Assembly: GCA_947472795.1 (NCBI GenBank)
Contig: CANJBL010000008.1
Span: 62,001-126,000 of the forward strand
DNA length: 64,000 bases
Direction of reading: 5' to 3'
DNA from: Fidelibacterota bacterium
GTDB lineage: Bacteria; Pseudomonadota; Alphaproteobacteria; Rhodospirillales; Rhodospirillaceae
The first letter of the stretch is position 1, and each line of letters begins with the position of its first letter. The notes beneath the pieces are model-generated. The model was given only the letters and a program-made list of their open reading frames with translations, ran no database searches and was not told the DNA's origin. Shown piece after piece: positions 7,889 to 38,190 of this stretch. Both the position numbers and the translations under genes were made by a program.

Positions 7889-8055
7889 CTAGTGGTCCGA
7901 TTCTAACATTCGCATCCTAGGTCCGGAGACTGGTTTGCGAATGTTAGAATCAAAGGACCACTAGAAATTTATGAATCTAGTGGAGCTTACGATTTGACAT
8001 TCGCTACCCAGTGTTTCCGCCATCCAGAGAGCGAATGTCAAACCTGCTCCACTAG
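7889..8055. repeat. Paired-hairpin element, copy 1
   Basis: Hairpin 1 (7889-7964) has a 10-bp outer stem CTAGTGGTCC, an AAA bulge in the 3' arm and a 15-bp inner stem ending ACATTCGC. A 12-base spacer (7965-7976, AAATTTATGAAT) leads to hairpin 2 (7977-8055), which has outer stem CTAGTGGAGC, an internal loop and a 13-bp inner stem TTTGACATTCGCT. The two hairpins share the CTAGTGG base and the ACATTCGC core, so the second arm of hairpin 1 can also pair with the first arm of hairpin 2. Copy 2 at 38025-38190 has matching dimensions, AAA bulge and spacer but different stem sequences. The element lies directly against the reading frame of the iminopeptidase gene. No known repeat family is recognised. 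Confidence 0.8.
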
Positions 8056-8143
8056 CGGAATTCTGAATGATCCGGATAGGCCTTATTTTCAACGGCAAAT
8101 GCACCCAGGGCAAGGCCGGATGCTCGACTTTTGCCGGCGCCGC

Positions 8144-8188
8144 TTCTATGGTGCCGCGCGTTTAGCGTTTCTATGATGCCGCGCGTTT
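8144..8188 (+). repeat. Two direct repeats upstream of the MFS gene
   Basis: The 20-base sequence TTCTATGRTGCCGCGCGTTT occurs at 8144-8163 and 8169-8188, with a 25-base period. It lies 60-105 bp before the MFS transporter start and could be a tandem regulator site or a small duplication. Confidence 0.4.
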
Positions 8189-8248
8189 CCTGACGGCGCG
8201 CATCATATACGTTCCATCTCCCCTCGCACCGGCACACCACTGTCCCGC

Positions 8249-9409
8249 ATGGCCATCCTGTTCACCATTATATTCATGGACTTGGTGGGCTTCGGCCTGC
8301 TCATCCCGCTGTTACCGTTCTATGTGCAGCGCGTGGGCGCCGGGCCTGAGATCATCACGTTGGTGCTTGGCCTCTATTCCGTCGGTCAGCTCGTTGCCGC
8401 ACCAGTCTGGGGACGCTTGAGCGATTCTTTCGGCCGCAAGCCCGTGCTGGCGCTCACGAGCTTCGGCCTTGCGCTCTCCTACATCATGCTCGCGACCGCC
8501 GACAATTTGACGTGGCTGATCGTCGCGCGCCTTTTCGGCGGCGTCATGGCCGGGAACATCGCCGCCGCGCAAGCTTACATTAGCGATACGACCACGCGTG
8601 AAACACGCGCCAAAGGCATGGGCCTTCTGGGGGCCGCGTTTGGTCTCGGCTTCATCGTCGGACCTGGCATCGGCGGCGTCCTCGGTGGTCACGACGTTGC
8701 AACCGCCGACTTCGCCACGCCGGCACTCGTCGCCGCAGGGATTACTTTCGTCGCTGCGATGGGCGTTGTGCTGTTCTTGAAAGAAAGCCTGGCGCCAGAT
8801 ATCCGCGCCGCACGGCGCCAGCAGCCGCGTGTATCTCTGCGGGAAAAACTCCGCACGACCTTCGCTCGCAAATCCCTCGCCATTCTCGTGACGGTAAGTT
8901 TCCTCACCGTGACAGCGTGGGCGCTTTTTGAAACGGTCTTCGCGCTTTGGGCCAACGCCACCCTGACCTATGGACCTTTTCAGATCGGCACCGTGCTGAC
9001 GGTCATGGGCGTGATTGGTGTGTTGATCCAGGGCGGGGCCATAGGTCCTTTGACTCGGCGCCTTGGCGAAAAACGTCTGGCCATCGCGGCACTGATTTTC
9101 TTGGGCGTGGGGTATGCGGCACTTTGTCTTGCCACGCGCGTGCCCGAGATGTGGGCTGCCGTGACTCTGCTGGGTATAGGGTCCGCGCTTTTCACACCCA
9201 GCATGTCGAGCCTCGTCTCAAAGGAAGCCGGCGAGCACGAACAGGGTGCTGTATTGGGGGTTTATCAAGGGGCCACCGCGCTGAGCCGGGTGATCGGCCC
9301 TGCCCTTTCGGGCCTTGTCTTTGCCCGGCTGGGGGCCGGAGCACCTTTTCTGCTGGCGGCCTTTCTCCTCGCCCCTGGGCTCGTCCTTCTCTGCGCGCGC
9401 CGCCCATAA
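8249..9409 (+). CDS. MFS transporter, TetA/DHA1-like drug:H+ antiporter
   Basis: This 386-residue protein has twelve hydrophobic segments. The opening TIIFMDLVGFGLLIPLLPFY resembles the first helix of TetA-type carriers, and the loop 2-3 motif GRLSDSFGRKPVL is the MFS signature. The mid-protein GLGFIVGPGIGGVLGG resembles the drug-antiporter motif C. It probably exports a small drug-like compound with proton exchange, but the substrate is unknown. The N-terminus is a few residues shorter than usual and no strong ribosome binding site precedes ATG 8249, so an upstream non-ATG start is possible. It stands alone between copy 1 of the paired-hairpin element and the heat-shock promoter. Confidence 0.88.
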   Translation: MAILFTIIFMDLVGFGLLIPLLPFYVQRVGAGPEIITLVLGLYSVGQLVAAPVWGRLSDSFGRKPVLALTSFGLALSYIMLATADNLTWLIVARLFGGVMAGNIAAAQAYISDTTTRETRAKGMGLLGAAFGLGFIVGPGIGGVLGGHDVATADFATPALVAAGITFVAAMGVVLFLKESLAPDIRAARRQQPRVSLREKLRTTFARKSLAILVTVSFLTVTAWALFETVFALWANATLTYGPFQIGTVLTVMGVIGVLIQGGAIGPLTRRLGEKRLAIAALIFLGVGYAALCLATRVPEMWAAVTLLGIGSALFTPSMSSLVSKEAGEHEQGAVLGVYQGATALSRVIGPALSGLVFARLGAGAPFLLAAFLLAPGLVLLCARRP

Positions 9410-9458
9410 AACCTACTGTTTTTAATGGCTTAACCCTGGCGATGCGAATTCAAGACCC

Positions 9459-9487
9459 CTTGACGGCAGCCTTAAACGCTCCAACAT
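9459..9487 (+). promoter_or_regulatory. Candidate heat-shock (RpoH) promoter of hsp20
   Basis: CTTGAC at 9459-9464 and CCAACAT at 9481-9487 are separated by 16 bases. This resembles the alphaproteobacterial sigma-32 pattern of a CTTGA-type -35 and a C-rich, CAT-containing -10. It lies about 60 bp before the hsp20 start. Assignment is by pattern only. Confidence 0.45.
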
Positions 9488-9494
9488 AAGGGGA

Positions 9495-9549
9495 GCTGCG
9501 CCAAAGGTGGGCAGCCCTACGGTTCTCGCTCGCTGAGGAGAGTCACCAG
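9495..9549 (+). promoter_or_regulatory. ROSE-like RNA thermometer in the hsp20 5' UTR
   Basis: Directly before the Shine-Dalgarno GAGGAG, the leader has CTCGCTCGCT, containing two copies of the U(U/C)GCU motif that masks the ribosome binding site in ROSE elements. These elements are known upstream of small heat-shock genes in alpha- and gammaproteobacteria. TCTC and GAGA flank the site and can close a hairpin over it. The leader is short (about 60 nt from the candidate promoter), so it would be a compact version. Confidence 0.5.
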
Positions 9550-10011
9550 ATGACTAGAGTTTCGGTTTTCTCGAGCCCGCTGCTGTTGGGGTTCGACCAT
9601 ATCGAGCGCGTTCTCGACCGGGTCAACAAGACCGCGGCCGAGGGCTATCCGCCCTACAACATCGAACAGACCGGCGAGCATCGCCTCCGCATCACGTTGG
9701 CGGTGGCGGGTTTTGCCGAAGAGGATCTCAACGTCACCGTGGAGGACAATCAACTTGTCATCCGCGGCCGGCAGCAGGAAGACAGCAGTAACCGGGTCTA
9801 TCTGCATCGGGGCATCGCCGCCCGACAGTTCACGCGCAGTTTTGTACTGGCGGAAGGAATCGAGGTGCGCGGCGCTGAAGTGATCAATGGCCTGTTGCAT
9901 GTGGACCTGGAACGCCCCGTGCCTCAGCCGAAAGTGACCCAGATCGAGATCAAGAATGAGGCCAAGAAGAAGCCGAGCCCAAAAACCATCGATCTGGACC
10001 ACCGCAAATAG
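9550..10011 (+). CDS. Small heat-shock protein, Hsp20/IbpA family
   Basis: The 153-residue protein contains an alpha-crystallin domain at about residues 35-130. It starts YPPYNIEQTGEHRLRITLAV, continues AGFAEEDLNVTVEDNQLVIR, and has the typical ..RQFTRSFVLAEGIEV..GAEVINGLLHVDL ending. It acts as an ATP-independent holdase that binds unfolding proteins in the cytoplasm during heat stress. The N-terminal SPLLLGFDHIERVLDRV is characteristic of IbpA-like members. A DUF1150 gene follows 119 bp downstream, a common pairing in Alphaproteobacteria. Regulation is suggested by the candidate RpoH promoter and the ROSE-like leader just upstream. Confidence 0.95.
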   Translation: MTRVSVFSSPLLLGFDHIERVLDRVNKTAAEGYPPYNIEQTGEHRLRITLAVAGFAEEDLNVTVEDNQLVIRGRQQEDSSNRVYLHRGIAARQFTRSFVLAEGIEVRGAEVINGLLHVDLERPVPQPKVTQIEIKNEAKKKPSPKTIDLDHRK

Positions 10012-10130
10012 GAGTTCCAGAAATAAAGTTACCGCACACGTAAAAAATGTGCCCCAGAACCACCGGCGGTGCCGTGCGTTATGCCTGATAACAGGGCCGT
10101 CCGTGGATGATCGCTCGAAAGGAGGATCAC

Positions 10131-10415
10131 ATGTTGGATAAAGACCTAGACAGCCAAGAGGACAATTTCGACGAAGACGTCGCGGACCATATCTTCGCGC
10201 CGACGCTTCTGACCGCCGAAAGCGGCGCGACCCCTATGGATCTCGCGCGCGTCGGCATCAGCGAAGTGGCCTACATTCGCCGCGCCATCGTCAACGACGT
10301 TGCGATGTGGACCATTCATAGCGCCGCCGGAGATCCGCTGGGTGCTGCGCACAGCTTCGACCTTGCCTGGGCCGCCGTGAAGCAGAACGACCTGGAGCCG
10401 GTGAGAGTCCACTGA
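10131..10415 (+). CDS. DUF1150 family protein
   Basis: The 94-residue protein has an acidic N-terminus (LDKDLDSQEDNFDEDV) and a folded core with DLARVGISEVAYIRRAIVND followed by WTIHSAAGDPLGAAHSFDLA. This matches DUF1150, a small family of unknown function found mostly in Alphaproteobacteria and often next to hsp20, as here. A strong Shine-Dalgarno sequence (AAAGGAGG) precedes ATG 10131 and fixes the start. It probably shares stress regulation with hsp20; its biochemical role is unknown. Two hairpins at 10451-10502 follow. Confidence 0.85.
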   Translation: MLDKDLDSQEDNFDEDVADHIFAPTLLTAESGATPMDLARVGISEVAYIRRAIVNDVAMWTIHSAAGDPLGAAHSFDLAWAAVKQNDLEPVRVH

Positions 10416-10450
10416 CGTAGAAGTTCGCTAGACACACCACCAACGATGCG

Positions 10451-10502
10451 GAGGAGCCTTTGGGCTCTTCTTGCAGGGCGCGCCCGGATGTACGGCGCGC
10501 CC
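10451..10502 (+). terminator. Two tandem hairpins after hsp20-DUF1150
   Basis: An 8-bp stem GAGGAGCC/GGCTCTTC (10451-10470) is followed by GGGCGCGCC/GGCGCGCCC (10476-10502) with a 9-base loop. There is no long T-run, only TTCTT after the first and ATTTCGTTT after the second, so termination is likely but not certain. The rest of 10503-10624 is the old tRNA promoter region. Confidence 0.5.
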
Positions 10503-10624
10503 ATTTCGTTTCAGGGGCCGTTTCATTTGGGAATAGCTGAACTTTGGGTTCCCTTGAACCCTCGGCCCTGTCTGCACAGGCCGGAGGGAGCGTGCTATAT
10601 CTCCGCTCGCCTGATTGGGGGCAC

Positions 10625-10664
10625 GTTCCCGTAGCTCAGCTGGATAGAGCACCAGATTCCTAAT
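10625..10664 (+). repeat. attL: 40-bp copy of the 5' half of tRNA-Arg(CCT)
   Basis: These 40 bases are identical to positions 22854-22893, the 5' half of the intact tRNA-Arg(CCT), ending one base past the anticodon loop. After 10664 the sequence diverges. This is the left junction of the genomic island and marks the original tRNA locus; a possible promoter TATAT lies at about 10595 in the host sequence upstream. Confidence 0.93.
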
Positions 10665-10720
10665 ATACGGGGCGATTGCGTTATTGGCCGTTTACTTGGC
10701 GAATCCGACGGCCTATCGAG

Positions 10721-10740
10721 TCCGTATACGATCCGTATAT
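10721..10740 (+). promoter_or_regulatory. Candidate integrase arm-type site, left end
   Basis: TCCGTATA occurs twice with a 10-base period (TCCGTATACG then ATCCGTATAT), 57 bases inside attL. The same pair is found at 21303 and 22699. One helical turn between copies and location at the island ends fit arm-type binding sites of a tyrosine integrase. The serine recombinase starts 30 bp downstream. Confidence 0.6.
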
Positions 10741-10770
10741 TCAGTATTTATACCGATTTAGGCGGACTGA

Positions 10771-11376
10771 ATGAAAACAGCAGTAATTTATGCGCGAGTT
10801 TCAACACAAGACCAAAACACTGAAAATCAACTGATCGCACTCCGTGAGGCTGCTCGACGAAACCGTTGGCGAATAGTTCACGAGTTTGTTGATCACGGCA
10901 TCTCTGGCGCAAAGTCCGCATCACATCGGCCAGCATTGGCCTCACTGCTAAAGAGCGTGCAGCGAAGAGAGTTTGACACTGTGATGGCATGGGATGTTTC
11001 TCGGCTAGGTCGCTCTCTCCAAGACCTCGTCTCAATTCTTCAAGATATCCACGCAAAAGACATCGATCTTTATCTCCACCAACAGGGGATCGACACCTCT
11101 ACGCCATCAGGAAAGATGATGTTCCAGATGTGTGGAGTGTTTGCAGAGTTCGAGCGCGGAATGATTCGAGAGCGAGTTCTGGCAGGTCAGGAACGGGCTC
11201 GAAGGGCTGGGAAAAAGCTTGGACGCCCTTCCAATGTCACTAAAGACACGAAGGATGCAGTCATCCATATGCGGAAATCATTGAACTGGGGCATTCAGAA
11301 AATTGCCTCAGAACTACGGATTGGAACAGGCCAAGTATACAAACTACTAGAGCCTGCTAACGTGGCTTGCGCATAG
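10771..11376 (+). CDS. Serine recombinase, resolvase/invertase family
   Basis: The 201-residue protein opens with AVIYARVSTQDQNTENQLIAL, with the catalytic serine at about residue 11. The resolvase core motifs follow: DHGISGAK, the MAWDVSRLGRSLQDLV helix with its arginines, and FAEFERGMIRERVLAGQERAR. The C-terminal part (about 145-198) is a small helix-turn-helix (IQKIASELRIGTGQVYKLLE). It has the size of Tn3-type resolvases and invertases rather than large serine integrases. It may resolve dimers, invert a segment, or be a remnant of another element, since the island already has a tyrosine integrase. No inverted res/hix-like site was identified. Its last 20 bp overlap the convergent XRE gene. 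Confidence 0.92.
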   Translation: MKTAVIYARVSTQDQNTENQLIALREAARRNRWRIVHEFVDHGISGAKSASHRPALASLLKSVQRREFDTVMAWDVSRLGRSLQDLVSILQDIHAKDIDLYLHQQGIDTSTPSGKMMFQMCGVFAEFERGMIRERVLAGQERARRAGKKLGRPSNVTKDTKDAVIHMRKSLNWGIQKIASELRIGTGQVYKLLEPANVACA

Positions 11377-11593
11377 TCACTAGAACACTTGGTTCCACGT
11401 CTAATGCCTTCGCAAGCTTCCCGAGGACCGTGACTGTCGGAGAAGCTGTAGCTCTTTCGACCGACCCGATGTAGCGAGGACTTAACCCTACTCGATCTGC
11501 GAGTTCTTCCTGCGTCATGCTTTTTGCATGACGTGTCCTCCGTACATTTCCTGCAACAACGTCCTTCAGGTCCATCGTCTCATGCAAGGACAT
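11357..11593 (-). CDS. XRE-family helix-turn-helix transcriptional regulator
   Basis: The 78-residue protein has a Cro/C1-type helix-turn-helix at about residues 12-68, with RTRHAKSMTQEELADRVGLS, then SPRYIGSVERATASPTVTVL and a final GKLAKALDVEPSVLV helix. It is essentially a bare DNA-binding domain, likely a repressor of its own and the divergent promoter. Between it and the next gene lie two near-identical sites (CGGCATTATWGTTCC) at 11595 and 11651, one of them touching its start codon. The start is ATG 11593, or ATG 11575 in the same frame. It converges on the serine recombinase with a 20-bp overlap. Confidence 0.87.
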   Translation of the reverse strand: MSLHETMDLKDVVAGNVRRTRHAKSMTQEELADRVGLSPRYIGSVERATASPTVTVLGKLAKALDVEPSVLVTMRKPR

Positions 11594-11594
11594 G

Positions 11595-11665
11595 CGGCAT
11601 TATTGTTCCAGGAACGATGCTTCCTATTCGTACTTTTAACGGTGATGCATCGGCATTATAGTTCC
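11595..11665. promoter_or_regulatory. Twin operator-like repeats between the XRE gene and the zinc-ribbon gene
   Basis: CGGCATTATTGTTCC (11595-11609) and CGGCATTATAGTTCC (11651-11665) differ at one base. The first overlaps a perfect GTTCC-A-GGAAC palindrome (11605-11615). They lie in the divergent gap between the regulator and the gene at 11703, where an autoregulating XRE protein would bind. Confidence 0.55.
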
Positions 11666-11702
11666 GACGCTTTGTGACTTATGGGGATTGGGGAAGGTTC
11701 AA

Positions 11703-12788
11703 ATGAAATACTGCGCTCAGTGCGGGAAGTCGGTCTCGGCACTTTTTTGCTCTCACTGTGGAGCGAAAGCTGAAGGCGGGGCTGACACTCAGAACAAAGA
11801 AAATAAAACTGACGACACACAGGAGTCTGGATGGGCAGCTATCGCTCCGAATGCAGAATCTCCCACTGCCAGCTTTAGTCCCAAATGGTGGATTCGGGGA
11901 GGCGCTGCGCTTTTCTTCGCCTTCATTGCCTATCTCAATCTTCCCATCTCATGGAAAACGTTTGGTCCGAACCAAACTGGCACTCAGCAGCCTAGTGTTC
12001 CTGCCAAAACATTGGGAGCTGCTTCTGGAGACCCGGCTTTAGAGATTTGGGTAAATGCCGCGAAGGACGCTGTAGCTCAGTATGAAATGGTGAAGCGTAG
12101 TGGCTCACCGGGGGATATCTGTCTCCAAGCATCAATAGTCTCAGCTTCATTTCTCCAAGCCAAAGATGAAGCAAGTTATGCGAAGTGGAAGAGGACCGAG
12201 ATACTGGACTGTGGGCGTGCAGGCATGGGAGATCAGGCTGCATACCTAAAAGCACTGGCGGAAGACATGAAGGAGAATGGAGAGAAGTCGGAATTTGCAC
12301 AGCAGGTAAAAGGCTTGGTTGGCACTCCGAGTAGTTCCACGGTTCAGGCCCAGCAACTTCCCATTAGTGCGCATTCATGGGACGCCAAGATAACAGGAGC
12401 CAGTGGCATCGGGGGCGACACCGCCAAGATTACCGCGTCGGTAACCGGGGAAGATTTGAGAGAGTACTGTGCTCGCGATCTTGGGGAATATGACGATAAG
12501 ACTAATAGCTACGGTGATGGCGGTTCTCCCGAAACGAAGGCCAAAATAGATTCATGCGTGACGAAGGAGAGCCACGAGCATCTCAATCAGCAGCATTTTG
12601 CCCAGGCCAATTGCACTACGAAAACGATCACTGCCACTAGTGCTCTGCGAGGCTCTTTCCAAATAACTGGCAGAGACAATTCGGGGGCGTTTCAATGGAA
12701 GGCCGTGCAGACTGGCGAAACTCTTGATGGTTCGACTGCATCCGGGGCTTCGCTTTTAAGTGCTCAGTTCGACCTTCTATGTCCGTAG
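11703..12788 (+). CDS. Zinc-ribbon membrane protein of unknown function
   Basis: The 361-residue protein starts with a double CxxC zinc ribbon (YCAQCGKSVSALFCSHCGAK, residues 3-22). A polar linker, one transmembrane helix (about 62-82, RGGAALFFAFIAYLNLPISW) and a long, probably periplasmic domain follow. Four or more cysteines in the second half (DLREYCARDL, IDSCVTKESH, QANCTTK, LLCP) could form disulfides. ATG 11703 has a good Shine-Dalgarno (GGGGAAGG); an in-frame TTG at 11688 is less likely. It is divergent from the XRE gene and probably controlled by it. The zinc-ribbon plus membrane layout occurs in many bacterial stress or sensory proteins, but no function can be assigned. Confidence 0.75.
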   Translation: MKYCAQCGKSVSALFCSHCGAKAEGGADTQNKENKTDDTQESGWAAIAPNAESPTASFSPKWWIRGGAALFFAFIAYLNLPISWKTFGPNQTGTQQPSVPAKTLGAASGDPALEIWVNAAKDAVAQYEMVKRSGSPGDICLQASIVSASFLQAKDEASYAKWKRTEILDCGRAGMGDQAAYLKALAEDMKENGEKSEFAQQVKGLVGTPSSSTVQAQQLPISAHSWDAKITGASGIGGDTAKITASVTGEDLREYCARDLGEYDDKTNSYGDGGSPETKAKIDSCVTKESHEHLNQQHFAQANCTTKTITATSALRGSFQITGRDNSGAFQWKAVQTGETLDGSTASGASLLSAQFDLLCP

Positions 12789-12813
12789 CGCTGGCGGAGT
12801 GCGGAGCTCGAAA

Positions 12814-12891
12814 ATGACCGTTATCTTCAAGGCCCTCGCGGCTCTATACTTCCTTGCGTATTTGGTGACCGCTTTTTTGTCCTCCTTTTGA
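12814..12891 (+). CDS. Possible 25-residue membrane peptide
   Basis: ATG 12814 to TGA 12891 encodes a 25-residue peptide, MTVIFKALAALYFLAYLVTA and then FLSSF, a single hydrophobic helix. It lies 26 bp after the zinc-ribbon membrane protein, in the same direction. The upstream GGAGCTCGAAA is a possible ribosome binding site. It could be a small partner subunit or chance; nothing else is found in 12789-12994. Confidence 0.35.
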   Translation: MTVIFKALAALYFLAYLVTAFLSSF

Positions 12892-12994
12892 TGCACTATG
12901 CACCTCCATGATCGATGCGTAGTAGCGGACTTTCCTCATAGTGCGGTTGTTTGCCTTAGGAGCTTATTCCTAGATAAACCACAAGCGAGGCGCG

Positions 12995-13765
12995 ATGTTC
13001 TTCAAGCCCATTTCGGTCACCCGACAAATATCTCGCGGCTCAAAGGACTATGACAATTCTCATACAATCACGTTCGAATTAGCCACTACGCGGGAAAACA
13101 TACTCGAGATATCGACCGATTGCGTTTTGTGCGCTCCCAGCCGCTTTCGCGTTCACTACCAAAAGGATGGAATGCGGAGGGTGCTAAATCCAACGCTTAC
13201 GCTCTATCGAGACACAAAATTCGACGATATTTTGCCGCGGAAGATGGTCGATGACCCAGCAATGAAGGACGCAATAGGATTCGCTACCTTCTCACGTCAC
13301 AAAGACGATCATCTTTATTGCGCATTTAGCATCCCGCTTAACGCTGAATCCTTTGACACCTTGGCGCAAGACATTGTTTCTGGCGTTACTCCTACCGAGG
13401 TCTTTGTAGAATTCTCTTCACCGATCGACTACCTGAACGACGATCCAAAAAAACTGGAGTTTGGTTGGGAGCCCGACGGTAGCCGCAGAATCTGGAATGT
13501 CCCCGAAGGGGATCAAACAGACTTCCTTCCAATAGAATCCATACGTTTTACGACCACACATGTCGATGCTCGGAATTTGGAGGAAATGGAAGCGCATCCC
13601 GATGACGCTTTACCGGTGAAAGCACCCGCTCTCTCGTTAGCTGAGCTGGCAATCGAGGCCAAAAAGGCTAATGAGGGAATTCTGCGGCTATCCAAAACCG
13701 TGAAAAACCTCGTTTGGCTGGTCGTAGCTGCAGGGGTGATTATCCTACTGAAATTTGCATCCTGA
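12995..13765 (+). CDS. Unknown protein with C-terminal membrane anchor, first gene of a HEPN-type operon
   Basis: I do not recognise this 256-residue protein. The first about 210 residues are a soluble, beta-rich sequence with two cysteines (STDCVLCAPSRF) near residue 45. A short helix (LSLAELAIEAKKANEGILRL) leads to a single C-terminal transmembrane segment (NLVWLVVAAGVIILLKF), so the bulk would face the cytoplasm. It is followed after 22 bp by two small membrane proteins and a HEPN-like protein, all in one direction and tightly spaced, suggesting a four-gene module. Codon use is that of the island, not of the host. Confidence 0.7.
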   Translation: MFFKPISVTRQISRGSKDYDNSHTITFELATTRENILEISTDCVLCAPSRFRVHYQKDGMRRVLNPTLTLYRDTKFDDILPRKMVDDPAMKDAIGFATFSRHKDDHLYCAFSIPLNAESFDTLAQDIVSGVTPTEVFVEFSSPIDYLNDDPKKLEFGWEPDGSRRIWNVPEGDQTDFLPIESIRFTTTHVDARNLEEMEAHPDDALPVKAPALSLAELAIEAKKANEGILRLSKTVKNLVWLVVAAGVIILLKFAS

Positions 13766-13787
13766 TTTCATTTATGGAGGTCCATTT

Positions 13788-14371: not shown

Positions 14372-14397
14372 GACACGAGTACTCGATTGGATATCCC

Positions 14398-14970: not shown

Positions 14971-15046
14971 TTTCTGCTTACTTTGGGTTAGGTCTGACGC
15001 GCTGACTTAGTTCACAGAGAACCGCGCCATATAAATTGATGTCAGG

Positions 15047-16574: not shown

Positions 16575-16594
16575 CCCATTGTGTAGAAATTGGG

Positions 16595-30340: not shown

Positions 30341-32410
30341 TTGCCATTTCCCCCGACCCACCCGTCACTTGCACGTGCGCTCGCAGACCGCGACTACAAC
30401 GACCCTACGGCCGTGCAGAGTGCCGTCCTAGCGCCCGATACCGCCGGCCGGGATTTGCTGGTCTCGGCGCAAACGGGATCAGGAAAGACCGTGGCGTTTG
30501 GACTCTCCGTCGCAACCGCGCTTCTCGATAATGCCCCCACCCTGGGCCCGGCGGGAAACCCTCTCGCCCTGATCATTGCGCCCACCCGCGAGCTGGCATT
30601 GCAGGTGCAACGCGAACTCGTGTGGCTCTATCAACACATCGATGCCCGGATCGTCGCTTGCGTCGGCGGCATGGACCCGCGTGCCGAGAAACATCAGCTC
30701 CGCGCAGGCTGCCATATCGTGGTCGGCACACCGGGGCGCCTGCGAGACCATCTTGAGCGCAGAAATCTGGACGTCGGCAGCATGAAGGCCGTGGTGCTGG
30801 ACGAAGCCGACGAGATGCTCGATCTCGGCTTCCGCGAAGACCTCGAGTTCATTCTCCAGACAACGCCGAAAGAACGCCGCACGCTGCTCTTCTCGGCCAC
30901 ATTGCCGCGCGACATCGTGAATTTGGCGAAACAGTATCAGAACAACGCGCTACGCATTGAGGCAACCGGCGGCGCGCGCGCGCATGCCGATATCGAATAC
31001 CGTGTCATGCGCATTGCACCGCAGGACACCGTGCACGCCGTGGTCAATGTCGCGCGCTTCGTGGATTCGCCGGCGACACTGGTGTTCTGCGGCACCCGAG
31101 ACGCAGTGCGTCATCTTCATGCCGCACTGGTCGAACGCGGTTTCTCGGCCGTCTCCTTGTCCGGCGAGTTAGGTCAGGCCGAGCGCAACCACGCGCTTCA
31201 AGCTTTGCGCGACGGCCGCGCCCGTGTGTGTGTCGCAACCGACGTGGCTGCGCGTGGGATCGATTTGCCCAATCTTGGCCTCGTCATTCATGCCGATCTG
31301 CCGAACGATGCCGAGACCTTGCAGCATCGCAGCGGACGCACTGGACGCGCCGGGCGCAAGGGCGTGAGCGTGCTTCTGGTCTCGCCCAAGAATCACCGGC
31401 GCGCTGAACGTCTGTTGGGTGAGGCGAACATCAAGGCGTCCTGGGTTAATCCTCCGACGCCCGACGCCATTCGCCAGATCGACAATGAACGCCTGTTGCA
31501 AAGCATAATGTCCGCCGAGGCGAGCGAGCCCGAAGATTTGGCGCTGGCAAAACAACTGCTGCAGCATCGCTCACCTGAAGACATCGCTGCGGCGCTTGTG
31601 CATATCCACCGTGCGCGCTTGCCGGCTCCCGAGGATATTATCGACACGGGTATGCCCGGTCCGCGCGAGCCGCAAACGGGCTTAGCAAGTGCGGTGTGGT
31701 TCCGACTCAACGTCGGGCGTCAGCGCAAGGCTGACCCCAAGTGGCTGATCCCGGAGATTTGCCGCCAGGGCGGGGTCACTAAACGGGCCATCGGCGCGAT
31801 TCGTATTTTCGATGAAGAAACGAAATTCGAGATCGACACCGACGCTGCCGAGGCTTTCGCGGCCAATGTGGCGAAAGTGACAAAGGGCGATATCTTCATC
31901 GGTAAAACGGACGCACCGGCCGACGGCGGTCACGTGCGCCGCACACCTTCAAGTTACGCCGGCAAGAAGGACTGGAAAGCGCACCCGAAAGGTGGGCGCG
32001 ACGATAAGGCCAGTGAACCTGCCCGCAGTGAACCTGCCCGGGACAAACCGCGATGGGAAAAAAAGCCTAAGCCGCATAGCAATGAACGCCAGGGTCACAA
32101 ACCGCATGGCGACAAAGCGCACGACCACAAACCCCAGGGCGATAAAGCCCATAGCGGCAAACCCTATGAGGCCAAACCTCACCACAAACCTCACGGCCAC
32201 AAACCCTATGAGGGCAAACCTCATGACGGCAAACCGCGTGACGGCAAACCGTACGGTAAGGCTGGGTTTGGCGGCAAATTCAAAGCCGGCAAGTATACCG
32301 GAAAGCCCGGAGGCAAGCCGAGCGGAAAGCCGGGTGGCGGATTTCAAAAGCCGGGCGGCGGATTTCAAAAGCCGGGCGGCGGATTTCAAAAGCGGCCCAA
32401 ACCGCGCTAG
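30341..32410 (+). CDS. DEAD-box RNA helicase with DbpA-type domain and repetitive basic tail
   Basis: The 689-residue protein has all helicase motifs: Q motif, AQTGSGKT (I), PTRELALQV (Ia), GTPGR (Ib), DEAD (II), SAT (III), ARGID (V) and HRSGRTGRAG (VI). A DbpA/CsdA RNA-binding domain follows (about 455-535, WFRLNVGRQRKADPKWLIPE). It then has about 140 residues of H, K, P and G-rich repeats (xKPHGDKAHD, PYEGKPHDGK, and GGGFQKP three times). It probably remodels structured RNA in ribosome assembly or cold growth. The start TTG 30341 gives the usual short N-terminus. The tail is encoded by short tandem repeats and is likely to vary in length between strains. Confidence 0.92.
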   Translation: MPFPPTHPSLARALADRDYNDPTAVQSAVLAPDTAGRDLLVSAQTGSGKTVAFGLSVATALLDNAPTLGPAGNPLALIIAPTRELALQVQRELVWLYQHIDARIVACVGGMDPRAEKHQLRAGCHIVVGTPGRLRDHLERRNLDVGSMKAVVLDEADEMLDLGFREDLEFILQTTPKERRTLLFSATLPRDIVNLAKQYQNNALRIEATGGARAHADIEYRVMRIAPQDTVHAVVNVARFVDSPATLVFCGTRDAVRHLHAALVERGFSAVSLSGELGQAERNHALQALRDGRARVCVATDVAARGIDLPNLGLVIHADLPNDAETLQHRSGRTGRAGRKGVSVLLVSPKNHRRAERLLGEANIKASWVNPPTPDAIRQIDNERLLQSIMSAEASEPEDLALAKQLLQHRSPEDIAAALVHIHRARLPAPEDIIDTGMPGPREPQTGLASAVWFRLNVGRQRKADPKWLIPEICRQGGVTKRAIGAIRIFDEETKFEIDTDAAEAFAANVAKVTKGDIFIGKTDAPADGGHVRRTPSSYAGKKDWKAHPKGGRDDKASEPARSEPARDKPRWEKKPKPHSNERQGHKPHGDKAHDHKPQGDKAHSGKPYEAKPHHKPHGHKPYEGKPHDGKPRDGKPYGKAGFGGKFKAGKYTGKPGGKPSGKPGGGFQKPGGGFQKPGGGFQKRPKPR

Positions 32411-32433
32411 CGCTCAGCGAGGAAAGCCGCGCG

Positions 32434-32745
32434 TCAGCGTTCGTGCGGCGGGATGTGCTTGATGCGCTGCACATGCCGAGCGATGTCCTCTACATCGTAA
32501 GAGAGATGCACACGCGTCTTTGAGGCTGGGCGCTTCACCACGGAAAGTCCCGGTCGCCATTCGATAGCGGTACGAACAGGGCGCGGCACAAAACCCCCGC
32601 CGCAGTTCGGGCAGACGTTGGAAAGTTTGTTTTCAACGCAGTCGGCGCAGAACGTGCATTCGTAAGAACAAATGCGAGCGGATGTGTCATGGGGGCTCAA
32701 GTCCCGGTCGCAGTATTCGCAGTTGGGTCTTAATGCGAGCGCCAT
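32434..32745 (-). CDS. DUF1272 cysteine-cluster protein
   Basis: The 103-residue protein has eight cysteines: LRPNCEYCDRDLSPH, ICSYECTFCADCVEN, NVCPNCGGGFVPRP. It matches DUF1272, a small zinc-ribbon family of unknown function. ATG 32745 has GGAGG five bases upstream; a GTG two codons earlier is less likely. It stands between the helicase (convergent) and the tautomerase gene. Confidence 0.88.
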   Translation of the reverse strand: MALALRPNCEYCDRDLSPHDTSARICSYECTFCADCVENKLSNVCPNCGGGFVPRPVRTAIEWRPGLSVVKRPASKTRVHLSYDVEDIARHVQRIKHIPPHER

Positions 32746-32789
32746 GAGCACCTCCGTCGCAAATGCTATCGATCAAACCAGTGTACGAA

Positions 32790-33014
32790 TCAGCCTGTTT
32801 TGCTGAACTGCTTGGCCTTGACGTCAGCCGTTGTCAGGCCGGCACCGCCGACGCCCCACTGGCCGCTGGCGACTTCATAAATCCGCACCCAGGTCAGCGG
32901 GCGCAGCGCCTCGCCTTCAATGGCCACCATGGCGTCGGTGACCTTGCTGATCATTTCCTGCTTCTGTTTTTTATCGAAGACACCTTCGATGAGATGAATA
33001 TCAACGAGGGGCAT
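32790..33014 (-). CDS. 4-oxalocrotonate tautomerase-family enzyme
   Basis: The 74-residue protein begins MPLVDIHLIEGVFDKKQKQE. After removal of the initiator methionine, proline is the N-terminal catalytic base, the hallmark of 4-oxalocrotonate tautomerases. The rest (ISKVTDAMVAIEGEALRPLT, WVRIYEVASGQWG) matches the small-subunit fold. It converts enol to keto forms in an oligomer, possibly in breakdown of aromatics. ATG 33014 has CAGGAG upstream; the longer frame up to 33302 runs into the divergent gene. A 9-bp inverted repeat and an HxlR regulator lie just upstream. Confidence 0.9.
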   Translation of the reverse strand: MPLVDIHLIEGVFDKKQKQEMISKVTDAMVAIEGEALRPLTWVRIYEVASGQWGVGGAGLTTADVKAKQFSKTG

Positions 33015-33089
33015 GTGAACTCCTGTGGACAGCGCGCTTCCCTGTGAAGCGCGGGGAGGCCCACATTCCGCCGCCGCGGGCCCTCGCGG

Positions 33090-33132
33090 CCAGTTCAGGA
33101 ACTGAATCTGCTCGGTACAGAAACTGAACTGG
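33090..33132. promoter_or_regulatory. Inverted repeat between the tautomerase and HxlR genes
   Basis: CCAGTTCAG (33090-33098) and CTGAACTGG (33124-33132) are perfect inverses. Between them GAACTGA and AAACTGAAC give extra half-sites. It is the only symmetric signal in the 179-bp divergent gap, so it is the probable HxlR operator controlling both genes. Confidence 0.6.
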
Positions 33133-33193
33133 AAGCTGATTTTTCCCCGCCTTAGACTGCGTAGACATTCACGGTTTTGAGAAGGGAGCTCCC

Positions 33194-33907
33194 ATGGCCG
33201 AAGGCAGTTACAACCAGTTCTGTCCGGTGGCGATGGCCGCCGAAGTCCTATGCACGCGCTGGACCATGATTGTCCTGCGCGAACTGACGGCGGGCTCGAC
33301 ACGTTTCAACGAACTGCGGCGCGGCGTGCCGCGCATGTCACCGGCATTGTTGTCCAAGCGCCTCAAGGATCTGGAAGCGGCGGGCATTGTCACCCGCGCC
33401 AAAGCACCGGGTGAGGCCGGGGTTTTCGAATACACGTTGACGCCTGCGGGGCGCGAGTTGCACCCCCTTGTCATGGGTGTGGGTCAATGGGGTCACAAAT
33501 GGCTCACCAGCGGCGCATCGCTTGAGAACCTGGACGTCAATCTTCTGATGTGGGACATGCGGCGCAATCTCAACACGCGCCCCATGAGGGACAAAAGCGG
33601 GCCACGCGGACGCAGCATCATTCAGTTCATCTTCTCCGACCTCGCACCGGCGCAACGCCATTGGTGGCTGATCGTGGACCCGCGCGAAGGAACCGATCTG
33701 TGTTCGGTCGACCCGGGCTTTGACGTTGACCTCTACCTCACCACTGACCTCAAGACCATGACCGCGGTGTGGATGGGCTATACCACCGTCAAGCGCGCCA
33801 AAGCCGACGACAGGTTGGTTACCACTGGCAATCGCGCCCTCGCGGCCGACCTTCAGACGTGGCTTGGCTTAAGCGTGTTCGCAAAAGGCGACCGCGCGGT
33901 GGCATAG
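33194..33907 (+). CDS. HxlR-family regulator with C-terminal SCP2-like domain
   Basis: The N-terminal 110 residues are an HxlR winged helix (FCPVAMAAEVLCTRWTMIVL, RELTAGSTRFNELRRGVPRM, LSKRLKDLEAAGIV). The C-terminal 115 residues (about 120-237) resemble an SCP2-like sterol carrier domain (IQFIFSDLAPAQRHWWLIVD, DPGFDVDLYLTTDLKTMTAV). The combination suggests a regulator sensing a lipid or hydrophobic ligand, possibly a substrate of the divergent tautomerase. ATG 33194 has GAAGGGAG upstream. The inverted repeat in the divergent gap is a likely site of action. Confidence 0.82.
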   Translation: MAEGSYNQFCPVAMAAEVLCTRWTMIVLRELTAGSTRFNELRRGVPRMSPALLSKRLKDLEAAGIVTRAKAPGEAGVFEYTLTPAGRELHPLVMGVGQWGHKWLTSGASLENLDVNLLMWDMRRNLNTRPMRDKSGPRGRSIIQFIFSDLAPAQRHWWLIVDPREGTDLCSVDPGFDVDLYLTTDLKTMTAVWMGYTTVKRAKADDRLVTTGNRALAADLQTWLGLSVFAKGDRAVA

Positions 33908-34026
33908 CGGCCCACCTCGGTGGCCGACATCTGTCTTTTTGGTAGGAACGGCCTAGCCCCCTCTTTTCTTCCGGAAACAGCGACCCTATTGTTTGCACGT
34001 GCGTGCAGTGTTGGGGGCAACATTCA

Positions 34027-34893
34027 ATGGCTGAAGGTTCGGCGGACGTTGCCGCCTATTACGACAACCTGTCTCGCTTTCTCGATTTTGCGCAGCAGTT
34101 TGGCCGTGGCGGTGGATCTCAGGACAGTTCCACACATCGTTTCCTCTCCGCCAACGCCGAAGAGATTCACGATGAGCACCATGGCCCTCAGCGCCTTGAC
34201 CTCTTGGTGATGGAAGCGGCCACAGCCGCCGGCCTGCCTTCTCGCCCACGGGTTTTGGACGCGGGCTGCGGCTTGGGCGGAACGATCTTCCGGTGGCAAG
34301 AGCGCCTGGGCGGCCGCTATGACGGCCTGACCTTAAGCCCCGAGCAACACCGCCGCGCCACGGCGGAAGCTGAACGTCGGGGTATTGCAGAGAGCTGCAG
34401 TTTTCATATCCGCAGTTATCAGGATTCCATCGCACCCCGGTCGTACGATGCTGTGGTGGCTATCGAATCCTTAGCCCATAGTCCCGATCCCATTGCGACC
34501 GTCAGCAATCTCGCCCCAGCACTTGTTCCAGAAGGGCTCATGCTGATCGTCGATGATATTCCCGACCGCCAGACAGGAAACGCGAGACTAGCGGCATTCA
34601 GAAAGAGTTGGCGTTGTCCGGTGCTGGCCGATGCGTGCAGCTACCGGGCAGCCATTGCGGCAGCGGGCCTGACACTAGTGCACGAGATCGACCTGACCGC
34701 GCGGCTGCGCCCGCGCCGGCTTGCCTGGCTCAAAATTCTCATCGCCGCCTTTGGCTTGGCTTACCGCTTATTGCCATCACGCGCCGCACGCGACATTCTG
34801 GATGCCCTGCGTGGCGGATTTTTGCTGGAAGCTCTCTATCGCGAGAACGCAATGCGGTACTTGCTTATCGTCGCCAAGAGACCAACGGCTTAA
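34027..34893 (+). CDS. SAM-dependent class I methyltransferase
   Basis: The 288-residue protein has the class I SAM site PRVLDAGCGLGGTIFRWQER (about 75-95), then GLTLSPEQHRRATAEAERRG and the acidic strand SYDAVVAIESLAHSPDP. The layout resembles small-molecule methyltransferases such as those for sterols or tocopherols. The substrate is unknown. ATG 34027 is chosen; a GTG 24 bp upstream extends it by eight residues. The DUF1801 gene follows after 31 bp. Confidence 0.82.
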   Translation: MAEGSADVAAYYDNLSRFLDFAQQFGRGGGSQDSSTHRFLSANAEEIHDEHHGPQRLDLLVMEAATAAGLPSRPRVLDAGCGLGGTIFRWQERLGGRYDGLTLSPEQHRRATAEAERRGIAESCSFHIRSYQDSIAPRSYDAVVAIESLAHSPDPIATVSNLAPALVPEGLMLIVDDIPDRQTGNARLAAFRKSWRCPVLADACSYRAAIAAAGLTLVHEIDLTARLRPRRLAWLKILIAAFGLAYRLLPSRAARDILDALRGGFLLEALYRENAMRYLLIVAKRPTA

Positions 34894-34924
34894 TATTTGC
34901 GCTCCATTGTCATGGATATCACCA

Positions 34925-35383
34925 ATGAAAAAAGCTGTTTCGCCCGCGAAAAAGAAAAATTCGAAGAAGACCGAAGAGGCTTCTGCCTCTCATTTGATCG
35001 ATGTGCGGATCAAGGAGCTGGGCGACTGGCGCGGTAAAACGCTGGCCCGCGTCCGCGCGCTGGTGAAACAAGCAGACCCGGATGTGGTTGAGACGTGGAA
35101 GTGGCGCGGCGTTCCGGTATGGGAGCATGCCGGCATCATCTGCACCGGCGAGACTTACAAAGAGGTCGTGAAGATGACCTTTGCCAAAGGTGCTTCGCTC
35201 AAAGATCCAGCACGCCTTTTCAATTCGAGCCTGGAGGGCAATACGCGGCGCGCGATTGATTTCAGAGAGAGCGATAAGATCAATGAGAAGGCCTTAAAGG
35301 CATTGATCCTGGACGCCGTGGCGCTCAACACTTCGTCTGGCAAGCGCAAAACACCTGCCAAAAAGAATGCGGTGAAGGCGTAA
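34925..35383 (+). CDS. DUF1801 domain protein
   Basis: The 152-residue protein has a basic tail (MKKAVSPAKKKNSKKTEE) and a DUF1801 (YdhG/YjhX-like) core: LIDVRIKELGDWRGKTLARV, VETWKWRGVPVWEHAGIICT and VKMTFAKGASLKDPARLFNS. This family of unknown function has an iron-chaperone-like fold. The frame is open upstream to 34721, but it overlaps the methyltransferase and lacks the family there. A basic tail also closes the C-terminus (KRKTPAKKNAVKA). Confidence 0.83.
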   Translation: MKKAVSPAKKKNSKKTEEASASHLIDVRIKELGDWRGKTLARVRALVKQADPDVVETWKWRGVPVWEHAGIICTGETYKEVVKMTFAKGASLKDPARLFNSSLEGNTRRAIDFRESDKINEKALKALILDAVALNTSSGKRKTPAKKNAVKA

Positions 35384-35401
35384 AGGCTCCTTCGGCGAAC
35401 A

Positions 35402-36874
35402 TCACTTTTCACCTTTCTGGTGCCATAGCACGTAGTCTTGTGCGCGCGCGGTGTTCCAGCCCATCACATCCTCGCCGGCAGCTTGAATCACCACGTCGGG
35501 CTTATGGCGGCAGAACCACGCGCGCGCGGCAACAATGCCCATCTGGTCCACGTACCACCTTGATTCCCCCAAAGCGTCAAAGTGCAGGATGTAGCGCGCC
35601 AGGAAATTCAGGAATTCACGCCCACGCGGCGAGAAACCAAGCAGACCGGCATTCACCATCGTATGGGCATAAGGCTCGTTCGGGCGCTCGTACAGAAGCA
35701 CATCAAATTGCGCCGGCAGGGCCGCCATGAGATCCCTGTTCACCACAATATCAACATCAAGGGCCACGACCGTCCTCGCCAGAGGCATCATGATCTGCGC
35801 CAATCTTACGAAGCGCCGTGTGGAGAAGATCGTGATATCCGCGGCATCGAACTCTTCCGTCGTCCAGCTTATGCGCTCGCGCGGAAGGTCGCGGAAGGTC
35901 TGTTCGGGATCGAAGCTTCCCGGATTCATGATGTGAAGGTGGAAGTCGCAGGCGGGACATTGCGACAGCACAGATGCAATCAGTGTTTTAGCGAACCGCG
36001 CGGCATAGAGGCCATCGGCAGCAGCATACAAAAGCGGCCTCGCGTTCGCCCGCGGCAGCGTTCCAGTGATGGTCGGCAGTGCGGCGATATCGCTTTGCAG
36101 GTCCCGCTGCTCAAGAGCGGCGAGGTCGCTGAAGTTCAAAATGTTGAGCCGGTCCGTCCGCAGCGAAAATGCTTCCTCGGGCTTGCCGAGCCCAAGCGCT
36201 GCCCACATGGCGAGACTGGTATCGTTCCAGCTTGAGGCAGGTGTCTGCAGAATGGCGGAAAGCGTATCCGCAGTGGGATTACCGCACGCGCGTTGGGTGA
36301 TCGCCTGAAAGGCCAGCGCCCGTGGCCGCAGCGCGGGCTGCGCGCTCGCCTGAGAGAGCAGCGGCAGGGCATCGTCGAACATTCCGCGCTTAACCAGCAT
36401 GATGCCGAGAAAGAGCGCCGCGTCGGTCGAATCGGGCGACAAGGACAGCAATAGCCGCAACAAATGCTCGGCTTCTTCGGGCTTGTTCTGTACGAAAAGC
36501 GCCGCACTGAGCGGTGGCAGCACCGAACGCAGATTGGCGAGGGTTTCCGTGCTTGCCGGGTTGATCTTCTGAGCAGCGAGAAATTGATCCGCGGCTTCCT
36601 GAAGCCTGCCTTGCTTTTGTAGAACGACGCCCAGATTGTTGTGCGCCTCAAACCAATTGGGTTTGAGCTTCAGGGCCTTTCCATAGTGATGGATCGCAGG
36701 GTCCATCTGACCCGCACCCGCCATGGACATGCCGAGAATGAGGTGCAACAGCGGCGCATCGGGTGCTGCCTTGAGAAGGCGGCGCACGGATGCAATGGCT
36801 TTCTCAAACTGCCCGGCCTCGAGCAGGGCAATCGCCCTCTGCAGGTCGGCCTGGAGATCAGTGGGCGACGGCAT
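35402..36874 (-). CDS. TPR-repeat protein with C-terminal glycosyltransferase domain
   Basis: The 490-residue protein begins with about five TPR units (residues 5-240; LLEAGQFEKAIASVRRLLKA, MDPAIHHYGKALKLKPNWFE, RLQEAADQFLAAQKINPAST). The C-terminal half (about 270-480) has VVALDVDIVVNRDLMAAL, a DxD-type metal site, and NAGLLGFSPRGREFLNFLAR, as in GT8/GT77-type enzymes. It could glycosylate a protein or a surface polymer. It shares the TPR-plus-transferase theme with the gene at 54697. It converges with the DUF1801 gene. Confidence 0.8.
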   Translation of the reverse strand: MPSPTDLQADLQRAIALLEAGQFEKAIASVRRLLKAAPDAPLLHLILGMSMAGAGQMDPAIHHYGKALKLKPNWFEAHNNLGVVLQKQGRLQEAADQFLAAQKINPASTETLANLRSVLPPLSAALFVQNKPEEAEHLLRLLLSLSPDSTDAALFLGIMLVKRGMFDDALPLLSQASAQPALRPRALAFQAITQRACGNPTADTLSAILQTPASSWNDTSLAMWAALGLGKPEEAFSLRTDRLNILNFSDLAALEQRDLQSDIAALPTITGTLPRANARPLLYAAADGLYAARFAKTLIASVLSQCPACDFHLHIMNPGSFDPEQTFRDLPRERISWTTEEFDAADITIFSTRRFVRLAQIMMPLARTVVALDVDIVVNRDLMAALPAQFDVLLYERPNEPYAHTMVNAGLLGFSPRGREFLNFLARYILHFDALGESRWYVDQMGIVAARAWFCRHKPDVVIQAAGEDVMGWNTARAQDYVLWHQKGEK

Positions 36875-36963
36875 GATGATGGAGAAATTCGGCGTTCAAT
36901 TGGCCCGGGCAGTAGGAGCCACATCACGCCGGTTTGTCAAAGGTTTCGTCGCGCGCGCCGCCG

Positions 36964-37983
36964 TTACGCCTTCGACCGGGCCGTGAGTGTGGCTTTCAGC
37001 GTTACCACCTTGCCGGTGCGCAGAACCGTGAAGATAATTGTACGCCCGATGCTGTCGGCGTTGAGCAACCGGTGCAAGTGATCGACGCCCGTCACTTCAA
37101 TGCCGTCAAAGCCGAGCAGAAGATCTCCATTCAAGAACCCCGCCGTCTCCGCCGGGCTACCGCTTTGCACGGTGAATATGCGGGCCCCGCTTTCAGCTTT
37201 GCGCTCGAGCGCGCGGGCGATGCGGCGCGGCAATCCTACGGTCTGCGCGCCCACACCGAGATGACTGCGGCGCACCTGACCGTGACGCAGGATTTCGGTA
37301 GCGACAAAAAGACCTGTGTTGGAAGCAATAGAAAAACACAGGCCTTGCGCACCCAGGATGGTCGCTGTGTTCACACCGATCACCTGTCCCGATGAATCGA
37401 CCAAGGGCCCGCCCGAGTTGCCGGGATTGAGCGCCGCATCGGTCTGTAGCACGTCCTCGATCTGCCGGCCCGACTGTGCACGCAAGGAACGGCCCAGCGC
37501 GCTGACAACACCCGATGTCACCGTGCATTCGAAACCAAAAGGATTGCCCACAGCGATAGCTACCTGCCCCACCTGAAGCTTGGCAGAGTCCGCAAAAGCC
37601 AATGCGGGGAAATGACTGGTGTCCGGCCGGCCATGCACCTGTATCACGGCAAGATCTGTGTCGGGGTCATCGCCCACCAGATAAGCCGGAAACTCGCTGC
37701 CGTCGGGAAACGCCGCGTGAATCGCGCCCGCTCCCTGAGCGTGAGGGTTGGCAACGTGGCTGTTAGTGATCATGTAGCCGTCGGGCGTGAAGAGAAAGCC
37801 AGATCCCGTGCCGCCGCCACGCTCGTCGCGGCTGGAACTTGGCTTCTTGGGCGTCACCCGCAGCTGCGCCACCGCAGGCGCCACTTTACCCACGGCGGAA
37901 ATAAGCGCGCGGCTATAGGCATCCAGCAGGTCACTGTCGACGACTGCCGACACAGGCGATGTCAGGGGTGCATCAAGAGGCAT
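36964..37983 (-). CDS. S1C trypsin-like serine protease with PDZ domain (HtrA/DegP type)
   Basis: From ATG 37983 the protein has 339 residues. The catalytic triad is visible: ITNSHVANPH (His), DDPDTDLAVIQV (Asp) and AALNPGNSGGPLVDSS (Ser). A PDZ domain closes the protein (SGSPAETAGFLNGDLLLGFD). It has no signal peptide, unlike classical DegP, so it may be cytoplasmic, as some short HtrA-like proteases are. Homology begins within the chosen start. The paired-hairpin element copy 2 lies 42 bp upstream, occupying the promoter/leader. Confidence 0.88.
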   Translation of the reverse strand: MPLDAPLTSPVSAVVDSDLLDAYSRALISAVGKVAPAVAQLRVTPKKPSSSRDERGGGTGSGFLFTPDGYMITNSHVANPHAQGAGAIHAAFPDGSEFPAYLVGDDPDTDLAVIQVHGRPDTSHFPALAFADSAKLQVGQVAIAVGNPFGFECTVTSGVVSALGRSLRAQSGRQIEDVLQTDAALNPGNSGGPLVDSSGQVIGVNTATILGAQGLCFSIASNTGLFVATEILRHGQVRRSHLGVGAQTVGLPRRIARALERKAESGARIFTVQSGSPAETAGFLNGDLLLGFDGIEVTGVDHLHRLLNADSIGRTIIFTVLRTGKVVTLKATLTARSKA

Positions 37984-38024
37984 GGCGTTTATGTAGGAAG
38001 GCTGCCCCGCCGGCGCAATACGCG

Positions 38025-38190
38025 CTAGCGTCGCGATTCGGAAGTTCGTTTGATCGCGCGGCAGGTGCTGCAACGAACTTCCGAATCAAAGCGACACTAG
38101 AATTGTATGAATCTCGTGTGGTTTTTTGGATTTGAAGTTCCTAAAGGAGCCCGCGGCGAAATCTTAGGAACTTCAAATCCACCACACGAG
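38025..38190. repeat. Paired-hairpin element, copy 2
   Basis: Hairpin 1 (38025-38100) has outer stem CTAGCGTCGC, one mismatch, the same AAA bulge in its 3' arm and a 16-bp inner stem ending GAAGTTCGTT. The 12-base spacer (38101-38112, AATTGTATGAAT) differs from that of copy 1 at two positions. Hairpin 2 (38113-38190) has outer stem CTCGTGTGGT, a five-base bulge and a 17-bp inner stem with GAAGTTCCTAA. Hairpin and spacer lengths equal those of copy 1 (76/12/78 against 76/12/79), yet the stem sequences differ with both arms changed together. Within the element both hairpins share GAAGTTC. It lies between the HtrA-like gene start and the end of the MFS gene. Confidence 0.8.

Follow-up and report, generated by a model that had tools for sequence, protein, structure and literature searches.

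Two paired-hairpin structures in a 64,000-nucleotide (nt) stretch of DNA from a Fidelibacterota bacterium (GTDB lineage Rhodospirillaceae; contig CANJBL010000008.1, positions 62,001 to 126,000; hereafter the window) are probably copies of a small mobile DNA element that carries no gene and is found in Alphaproteobacteria. The element appears to insert directly 3′ of a tetranucleotide, usually CTAG and at two dissected sites CTAA and CTCG, without duplication of the target. From comparison of its copies and of their insertion sites, we put the probability of this explanation as a whole at about 0.6.

Both copies in the window follow a shared plan, in which a hairpin of 76 nt (hairpin 1) is joined by a 12-nt linker to a hairpin of 78–79 nt (hairpin 2). 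The original prediction described this architecture, and it is confirmed by direct reading of both sequences and by their fold z-scores (−10.1 for copy 1 and −9.1 for copy 2, with 0 of 200 shuffles as stable for each copy). A search pattern based on the joint conserved between the copies has two matches in the window and none in 100 shuffles. The linkers are identical at 10 of 12 positions, and the outer stem of copy 2 contains one mismatch. The earlier statement that the stems differ almost completely between copies is overstated, as 16 of 26 positions in the hairpin-1 5′ arm are identical (including CTAG, GATTC and TTCG); the structure-preserving nature of the change holds. In a MAFFT alignment of 18 copies, 15 from the same genome and 3 from plasmids, two-sided changes are seen in 24 of 51 pairs, and 96.7% of cells are paired, a figure that is 90.5% for shuffles and does not exceed 38% when the partners are offset; none of 500 shuffles reaches the observed values. 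Two-sided changes rise to 47 of 51 pairs in a 150-row alignment that was fitted to the model and is biased towards it, and in which 54 rows are second readings of sites already included, mostly on the opposite strand. The two arms change together as had been proposed, and the stems vary with compensation.

At least three subfamilies can be distinguished: A (CTAGTGGTCC..ACATTCGC), B (CTAGTGTCGC..AAGTTCG, including copy 2) and C (CTAGTGCCCG..). The core that the original prediction saw in both hairpins is common to subfamilies A and B and, by eye, is not shared in subfamily C. Among 13 copies from the same genome, identity is 95–96% in the arms, 80% in the linker and 64–67% in the loops, which we read as arms that are probably under constraint while the element moves. 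Two copies appear by eye to be decayed: in L085:922-994 (G010) hairpin 2 alone is recognizable, and in L009:1501-1651 the inner 5′ arm of hairpin 2 is seemingly deleted.

The element is repetitive and its distribution in Alphaproteobacteria is patchy. BLAST with copy 1 identifies 13 full-length copies in the same genome, copy 1 included, and covariance model R1 locates at least 22 distinct sites in 3.2 Mb, a lower bound given that 150 of 529 candidates were scored. Matches are present in 17 of 61 genomes, namely 13 of 19 from the same genus (the source genome included), 3 of 18 others of the family and 1 of 24 others of the order. Across the class, at least 24 of 387 alphaproteobacterial genomes, the source genome included, match at E ≤ 1e-6, again a lower bound with 7 candidates scored per genome. 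A strict subfamily-A pattern retrieves 22 stretches from a collection of 84,980 species genomes; its carriers include members of the Ochrobactrum group (Brucella tritici, cytisi, pecoris, grignonensis, pituitosa and rhizosphaerae), Sphingobium vermicomposti, a Novosphingobium, a Tepidamorphaceae and a Sphingomonadales genome. Relatives are found on plasmids of Aminobacter, Ochrobactrum, Bradyrhizobium, Rhizobium and Roseibium/Labrenzia. Neither copy 1 nor the subfamily-A pattern has a match in viral contigs or phages, a covariance-model search of 400 kb sampled from G072 returned no copy, and no Rfam family reaches its threshold for the element. None of the refuting outcomes named with the original prediction is seen: the genome has at least 22 copies, their stems change with compensation, and Rfam gives no match at threshold. 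At L160 and L170, in Ochrobactrum-group genomes, the element adjoins an apparent second common palindromic repeat.

Insertion is seen most directly where orthologous loci lack the element. The flanks of copy 1 align with congeners, and all seven aligned congener intergenic regions are free of it. The filled site of copy C21 reads ..GTCGGC[CTAG..CTAG]CCTTCC.., and four congeners retain an empty site with a single tetranucleotide at the junction: CTAG (G016, G009), CTAA (G012) or TTAG (G018). The left neighbour is different or unalignable in the other 10 of 14 genomes. At the filled site, the TAG at either end is the stop codon of the adjoining gene, and a single CTAG probably served both stops before insertion. 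At the sites of copy 1, C21, C11 and the ftsA copy described below, the element is seen in no other compared congener.

Two sites at which the ends are not CTAG reveal which tetranucleotide belongs to the target. A copy between ftsA and ftsZ (L222:1201-1370, G009) sits at the ftsA stop codon, ..gagaactt[CTAA..CGCG]tgggagg... Across 16 congener loci the corresponding tetranucleotide is CTAA in six (G000, G002, G007, G010, G011, G018), CTAG in four (G001, G006, G012, G015), CTGA in four (G003, G008, G014, G016), TTAA in G017 and TTGA in G013; all are stop-codon contexts and none of the 16 continues with CGCG. The closest empty locus reads CTAAATGGGAG (G018). In this copy the internal foot of hairpin 1, TTAG, complements CTAA, while the CGCG end pairs with the CGCG foot of hairpin 2. 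A second copy (L249:1201-1368, G018) lies within the first codons of surE, which is uninterrupted in congeners, and has CTCG on the left (foot CGAG) and CGAG on the right (foot CTCG). When its flanks are joined by CTCG alone, they align to G000 at an equal length of 424 nt and without a gap where they meet; the junction is also gap-free in G009, G011, G012 and G017, with gaps nearby in G004, G006, G008, G014 and G016. The empty sites of G004 and G008 read CCGCTCGGCGA, and their four junction bases are CTCG. The site thus has room for a single tetranucleotide; the left one fits it, and the right one belongs to the element.

Other sites are less well preserved. At L251 the junction is gap-free in two of five congeners shown when a single tetranucleotide is kept, and at C11 and L246 the empty sites are highly diverged. 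A Roseibium element at an SDR stop codon has no empty site among the nine records with at least 80% query coverage, all of which span the query in full. When flanks are compared at 102 sites, four pairs of insertions prove orthologous, each of them in the Ochrobactrum group. L162/L173 is the oldest clear pair (flanks 90–91%), and its elements differ at 12 of 167 positions, eight of them in arms; the other three pairs show 1, 3 and 1 differences. Copies L093 (G000) and L242 (G017) lie in the same intergenic gap and are 79% identical, their nearest flanks are unalignable and their distances to the neighbouring gene differ, such that a shared or an independent origin are both possible. Copy number, patchiness and orthologous empty sites together bear out the mobile repeat among the options first proposed.

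The feet of the hairpins supply the second line of evidence. The 102 sites were examined, 96 of which are in the 150-row alignment; the six lowest-scoring are absent. CTAG forms the left end in 70 of 96, the right end in 57 of 96 and all four feet in 41 of 96. When CTAG/CTAG rows are set aside, exact complementarity joins the left end to the hairpin-1 3′ foot in 9 of 30 rows (shuffle mean 0.29); for the right end and the hairpin-2 5′ foot the count is 16 of 45 (shuffle mean 2.0). Both have P 5e-5, the floor of 20,000 shuffles. Pairing of an end with the foot of the other hairpin is found in 0 of 45 and 1 of 44 rows. The two foot pairings thus covary across copies, independently of each other. 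Among inexact feet, some are G–T wobbles, such as TTAG/CTAG at five sites, and others may result from decay. The element-specific 'address' sequences of the original prediction are accordingly located at the hairpin feet, one foot pairing with the target and the other with the end of the element itself.

An ordinary miniature inverted-repeat transposable element, mobilized by a DDE transposase with duplication of a 4-bp CTAG target, would fit the 41 sites with CTAG at all four feet, and C21 is compatible with duplication. We regard it as improbable: once rows with CTAG on both sides are excluded, left and right ends agree in 1 of 48 (shuffle mean 0.30, P 0.27), the empty loci of the CTAA/CGCG and CTCG/CGAG copies hold a single tetranucleotide which is not the right one, and the covariation of ends with internal feet is not predicted by duplication. 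The target-site duplication expected of such elements is not found. Template switching, a known mechanism for quasi-palindromes, could instead have perfected the palindromes and matched feet to their partners after insertion, so that stem and foot covariation would reflect neither selection for pairing nor guided targeting. This is unlikely in view of the native appearance of the left tetranucleotides, CTAA of the ftsA copy being present in 6 of 16 congener loci and CTCG of the surE copy in G004 and G008; in addition, the L162/L173 pair shows, by eye, unmatched as well as matched arm changes.

Guided insertion of a mobile element can be outlined as follows. The element would be non-autonomous and comprise about 163 nt plus the 4-nt target. 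The 3′ foot of hairpin 1, the putative left guide, complements the retained left tetranucleotide, and the 5′ foot of hairpin 2, the putative right guide, complements the terminal tetranucleotide of the element. A trans-acting transposase that binds both hairpins might then cut and join the folded single strand, with the cut positions set by short DNA–DNA guide pairings, as in IS200/IS605 and their HUH (Y1) enzymes, and a change of guide would shift the target. Such a mover could be an HUH enzyme that is rare or diverged, or else a different nuclease; movement would be single-stranded.

Several observations weigh against this reading. Junction bases at surE are TTTA (G000, G009), TTCC (G011), GTTA (G012) or TTTC (G017) in other congeners, and because of these the exact target at this site is taken from G004 and G008. 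The feet are not exactly complementary in 21 of 30 (left) and 29 of 45 (right) non-CTAG rows, and L086 has CTAA at both ends. The alignment of the feet was fitted to a paired model, which favours pairing there, and the copies are related, so that independent events are fewer than the shuffles imply. The matches listed for the source genome include no isolated arm or hairpin. No transposase linked to the element was found: among genomes of the class, Y1_Tnp (PF01797) is present in 9 of 23 with the element and 6 of 20 without it, the latter 20 being the first among those listed without a match and not a random draw, which reveals no association, and Y1_Tnp was not found in G072 and G324, each with at least seven element matches. 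The single Y1 (RAYT-like) gene of the source genome (L104, G000:C2:163376-163702) is flanked on both sides by an unrelated palindrome, GTCCCTGG..CCAGGGAC, identified by eye. In G072, three copies are in leading and four in lagging orientation relative to replication, assigned by hand from sampled skew, and with n=7 there is no bias.

A Y1 transposase was rejected as the mover for its lack of association with the element. Composite transposons were also considered and rejected, as neighbouring copies at C6 and C17 belong to different subfamilies, and in G009 the four largest non-overlapping open reading frames (ORFs) between two subfamily-A copies 3.4 kb apart (a pseudouridine synthase, an M20 peptidase, a hexapeptide transferase and one without family) include no transposase. 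In Alphaproteobacteria, Y1_Tnp-type genes number none or few per genome in the account of PMC6006769. The element might be REPIN-like and moved by a resident RAYT (TnpA-REP), given that a Y1/RAYT-like gene is present in 18 of 19 genomes of the genus and that REPs bear a tetranucleotide at the hairpin foot (PMC6006769). We judge this unlikely: the gene is also present in six congeners without elements and was not found in carriers G018, G020, G024 and G050 or in 14 of 23 class carriers, the palindrome beside the resident gene is a different one, and the element has far longer stems (about 26 bp) and mostly CTAG feet in place of GT[AG]G.

The conserved GANTC sites, which are recognized by CcrM, suggest a further layer. 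Each element carries 2.27 GANTC on average compared with 0.93 in shuffles, with at least one in 87 of 96 elements, mainly at the base of hairpin 1 (64/96 and 66/96) and in the linker (60/96). Dam sites couple movement of IS10 and IS50 to the half-methylated state after replication, and GANTC sites could couple movement of the element to the same state; a role in timing would follow. Alternatively, the copies may be host elements of the CIR type (CcrM-associated intergenic repeats), retained for a cell function such as CcrM-linked regulation. The GANTC enrichment and the high identity of arms relative to loops favour this, set against the absence of the element from all other genomes compared at the copy 1, C21, C11 and ftsA sites and the accumulation of arm changes in L162/L173 (the remaining pairs differing far less). 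We hold such a function to be doubtful, and it is compatible with mobility.

A structured RNA leader, or an attenuator in which the two hairpins re-pair with each other, had also been suggested and draws on the core common to both hairpins in subfamilies A and B. Pairing energies are −36 to −42 kcal/mol for an arm with its own partner, compared with −12 to −29 kcal/mol across hairpins, so that re-pairing is far weaker. Among the 22 copies of the source genome, 6 lie in convergent, 5 in divergent and 11 in tandem gene gaps, and the presence of copies in all three speaks against a leader; a place at the 5′ side of a leftward gene holds for both window copies and is not a property of the family. 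With no shared core in subfamily C and no Rfam match, this reading is very improbable. The 109 listed sites comprise, on ORF-based assignment, 24 convergent, 28 divergent and 55 tandem gaps and 2 at contig edges. In the tandem gaps among these sites, the element is antisense in 35 and sense in 20. Copies occur on stop codons because CTAG can contain the TAG stop of a gene on either strand, and where a copy ending in CTAG inserts at CTAG, both stops therefore stay intact. Targeting of stop codons beyond CTAG was rejected: stops overlap 20 of 96 left ends and 11 of 96 right ends compared with 41 of 298 other CTAG sites, so that CTAG alone largely accounts for the overlap.

Coordinates of both copies are given in table 1. 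The right end of copy 2 differs from its left CTAG. Copy 1 lies between genes for an alpha/beta hydrolase and an MFS protein, and copy 2 between those for a trypsin/PDZ protein and an MFS protein. An Rfam scan of the window also detects a TPP riboswitch above gathering score at 52665-52773 on the + strand.

Table 1. Parts of the two element copies in the window.
Feature	Position	Strand	Basis
Copy 1 of the element, subfamily A, 167 nt	7889..8055	+	sequence, fold, matches in the same genome
Left CTAG of copy 1, putative target tetranucleotide native to the site	7889..7892	+	empty sites of sister copies
Copy 1 hairpin 1: 10-bp outer stem, AAA bulge 7952-7954, 16-bp inner stem	7889..7964	+	sequence, fold
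Copy 1 putative left guide CTAG, 3′ foot of hairpin 1	7961..7964	+	covariation with left tetranucleotide across copies
Copy 1 linker; GANTC site (GAATC) across 7973-7977	7965..7976	+	sequence, GANTC count
Copy 1 hairpin 2; putative right guide 7977-7980; putative element-borne right end 8052-8055	7977..8055	+	sequence, fold, covariation of feet
Copy 2 of the element, subfamily B, 166 nt	38025..38190	+	sequence, fold, match in the same genome
Copy 2 hairpin 1; left CTAG 38025-38028; putative left guide CTAG 38097-38100	38025..38100	+	sequence, fold, table of feet
Copy 2 linker	38101..38112	+	sequence
Copy 2 hairpin 2; right guide CTCG 38113-38116, complementary to right end CGAG 38187-38190	38113..38190	+	sequence, table of feet

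The closest described kind, compared by description only, is the CIR repeats of Caulobacter/Brucella (for Caulobacter, Chen and Shapiro 2003, as cited by PMC2229807; PMC10969869), which are given as about 110 bp with GANTC at or in the terminal loop (PMC2229807). As in these accounts, the element has two long inverted-repeat arms joined by a linker, conserved GANTC, intergenic positions in Alphaproteobacteria and unexplained mobility; it differs in being 163–167 nt as a rule, and its GANTC sites lie in the linker and at the base of the stem. Compact relatives of 121–123 nt with short loops exist in other families of the class (L287, L288, L291), and are nearer to CIR repeats in length.

In manner of insertion the element resembles IS200/IS605. 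IS608 inserts 3′ of a TTAC retained in the left flank, by guide pairing, and is retargeted by a change of guide (PMC5934647). Shared features are a tetranucleotide kept on the left with no duplication (as found at the ftsA and surE sites and compatible with C21), internal guides that place target and end, and a hairpin per end. Unlike IS200/IS605, the element has no tnpA or tnpB, being too short at 163–167 nt to encode a Y1 HUH TnpA and with no longer form found. Its stems are about 26 bp, and guide and target close the foot of each hairpin. IS200/IS605 place a guide 5′ of each foot; in the element, hairpin 1 has the left guide in its 3′ foot, and hairpin 2 has the right guide in its 5′ foot.

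PATEs and SMRs of Haloquadratum are likewise transposase-free, do not duplicate their target and move in trans or by unexplained means, and PATEs have near-terminal palindromes (PMC3119063); they are archaeal and PATE palindromes resemble IS605 ends, whereas no autonomous element matching the one described here was found. REPs and REPINs with RAYT are palindromes with a tetranucleotide foot, often paired (PMC6006769, PMC3733652), with short hairpins and GT[AG]G or CGTC tags in contrast to the long stems and mostly CTAG feet seen here. RIME and Bru-RS, set beside the element by description only, are intergenic palindromic repeats of rhizobia and Brucella, Bru-RS being 103–105 bp. It is conceivable, and we propose it tentatively, that the element represents a separate class of single-strand mobile element with two long hairpins, each closed by a guide–target duplex, an enzyme outside the known Y1 family, and drifting guides that in nature re-address it to other, new tetranucleotides.

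No report of the insertion rule was found in the open-licence literature, and searches of paper texts for sequence strings of the element gave nothing relevant among the matches listed. Two-armed GANTC repeats of Alphaproteobacteria have been known since 2003 (as cited by PMC2229807), their way of moving being left unexplained in that account. Empty sites and covarying feet now provide a concrete, testable insertion rule and point to an enzyme that moves the element. Target choice by short DNA pairing was re-engineered in IS608; the evidence here suggests that such choice also drifts in nature.

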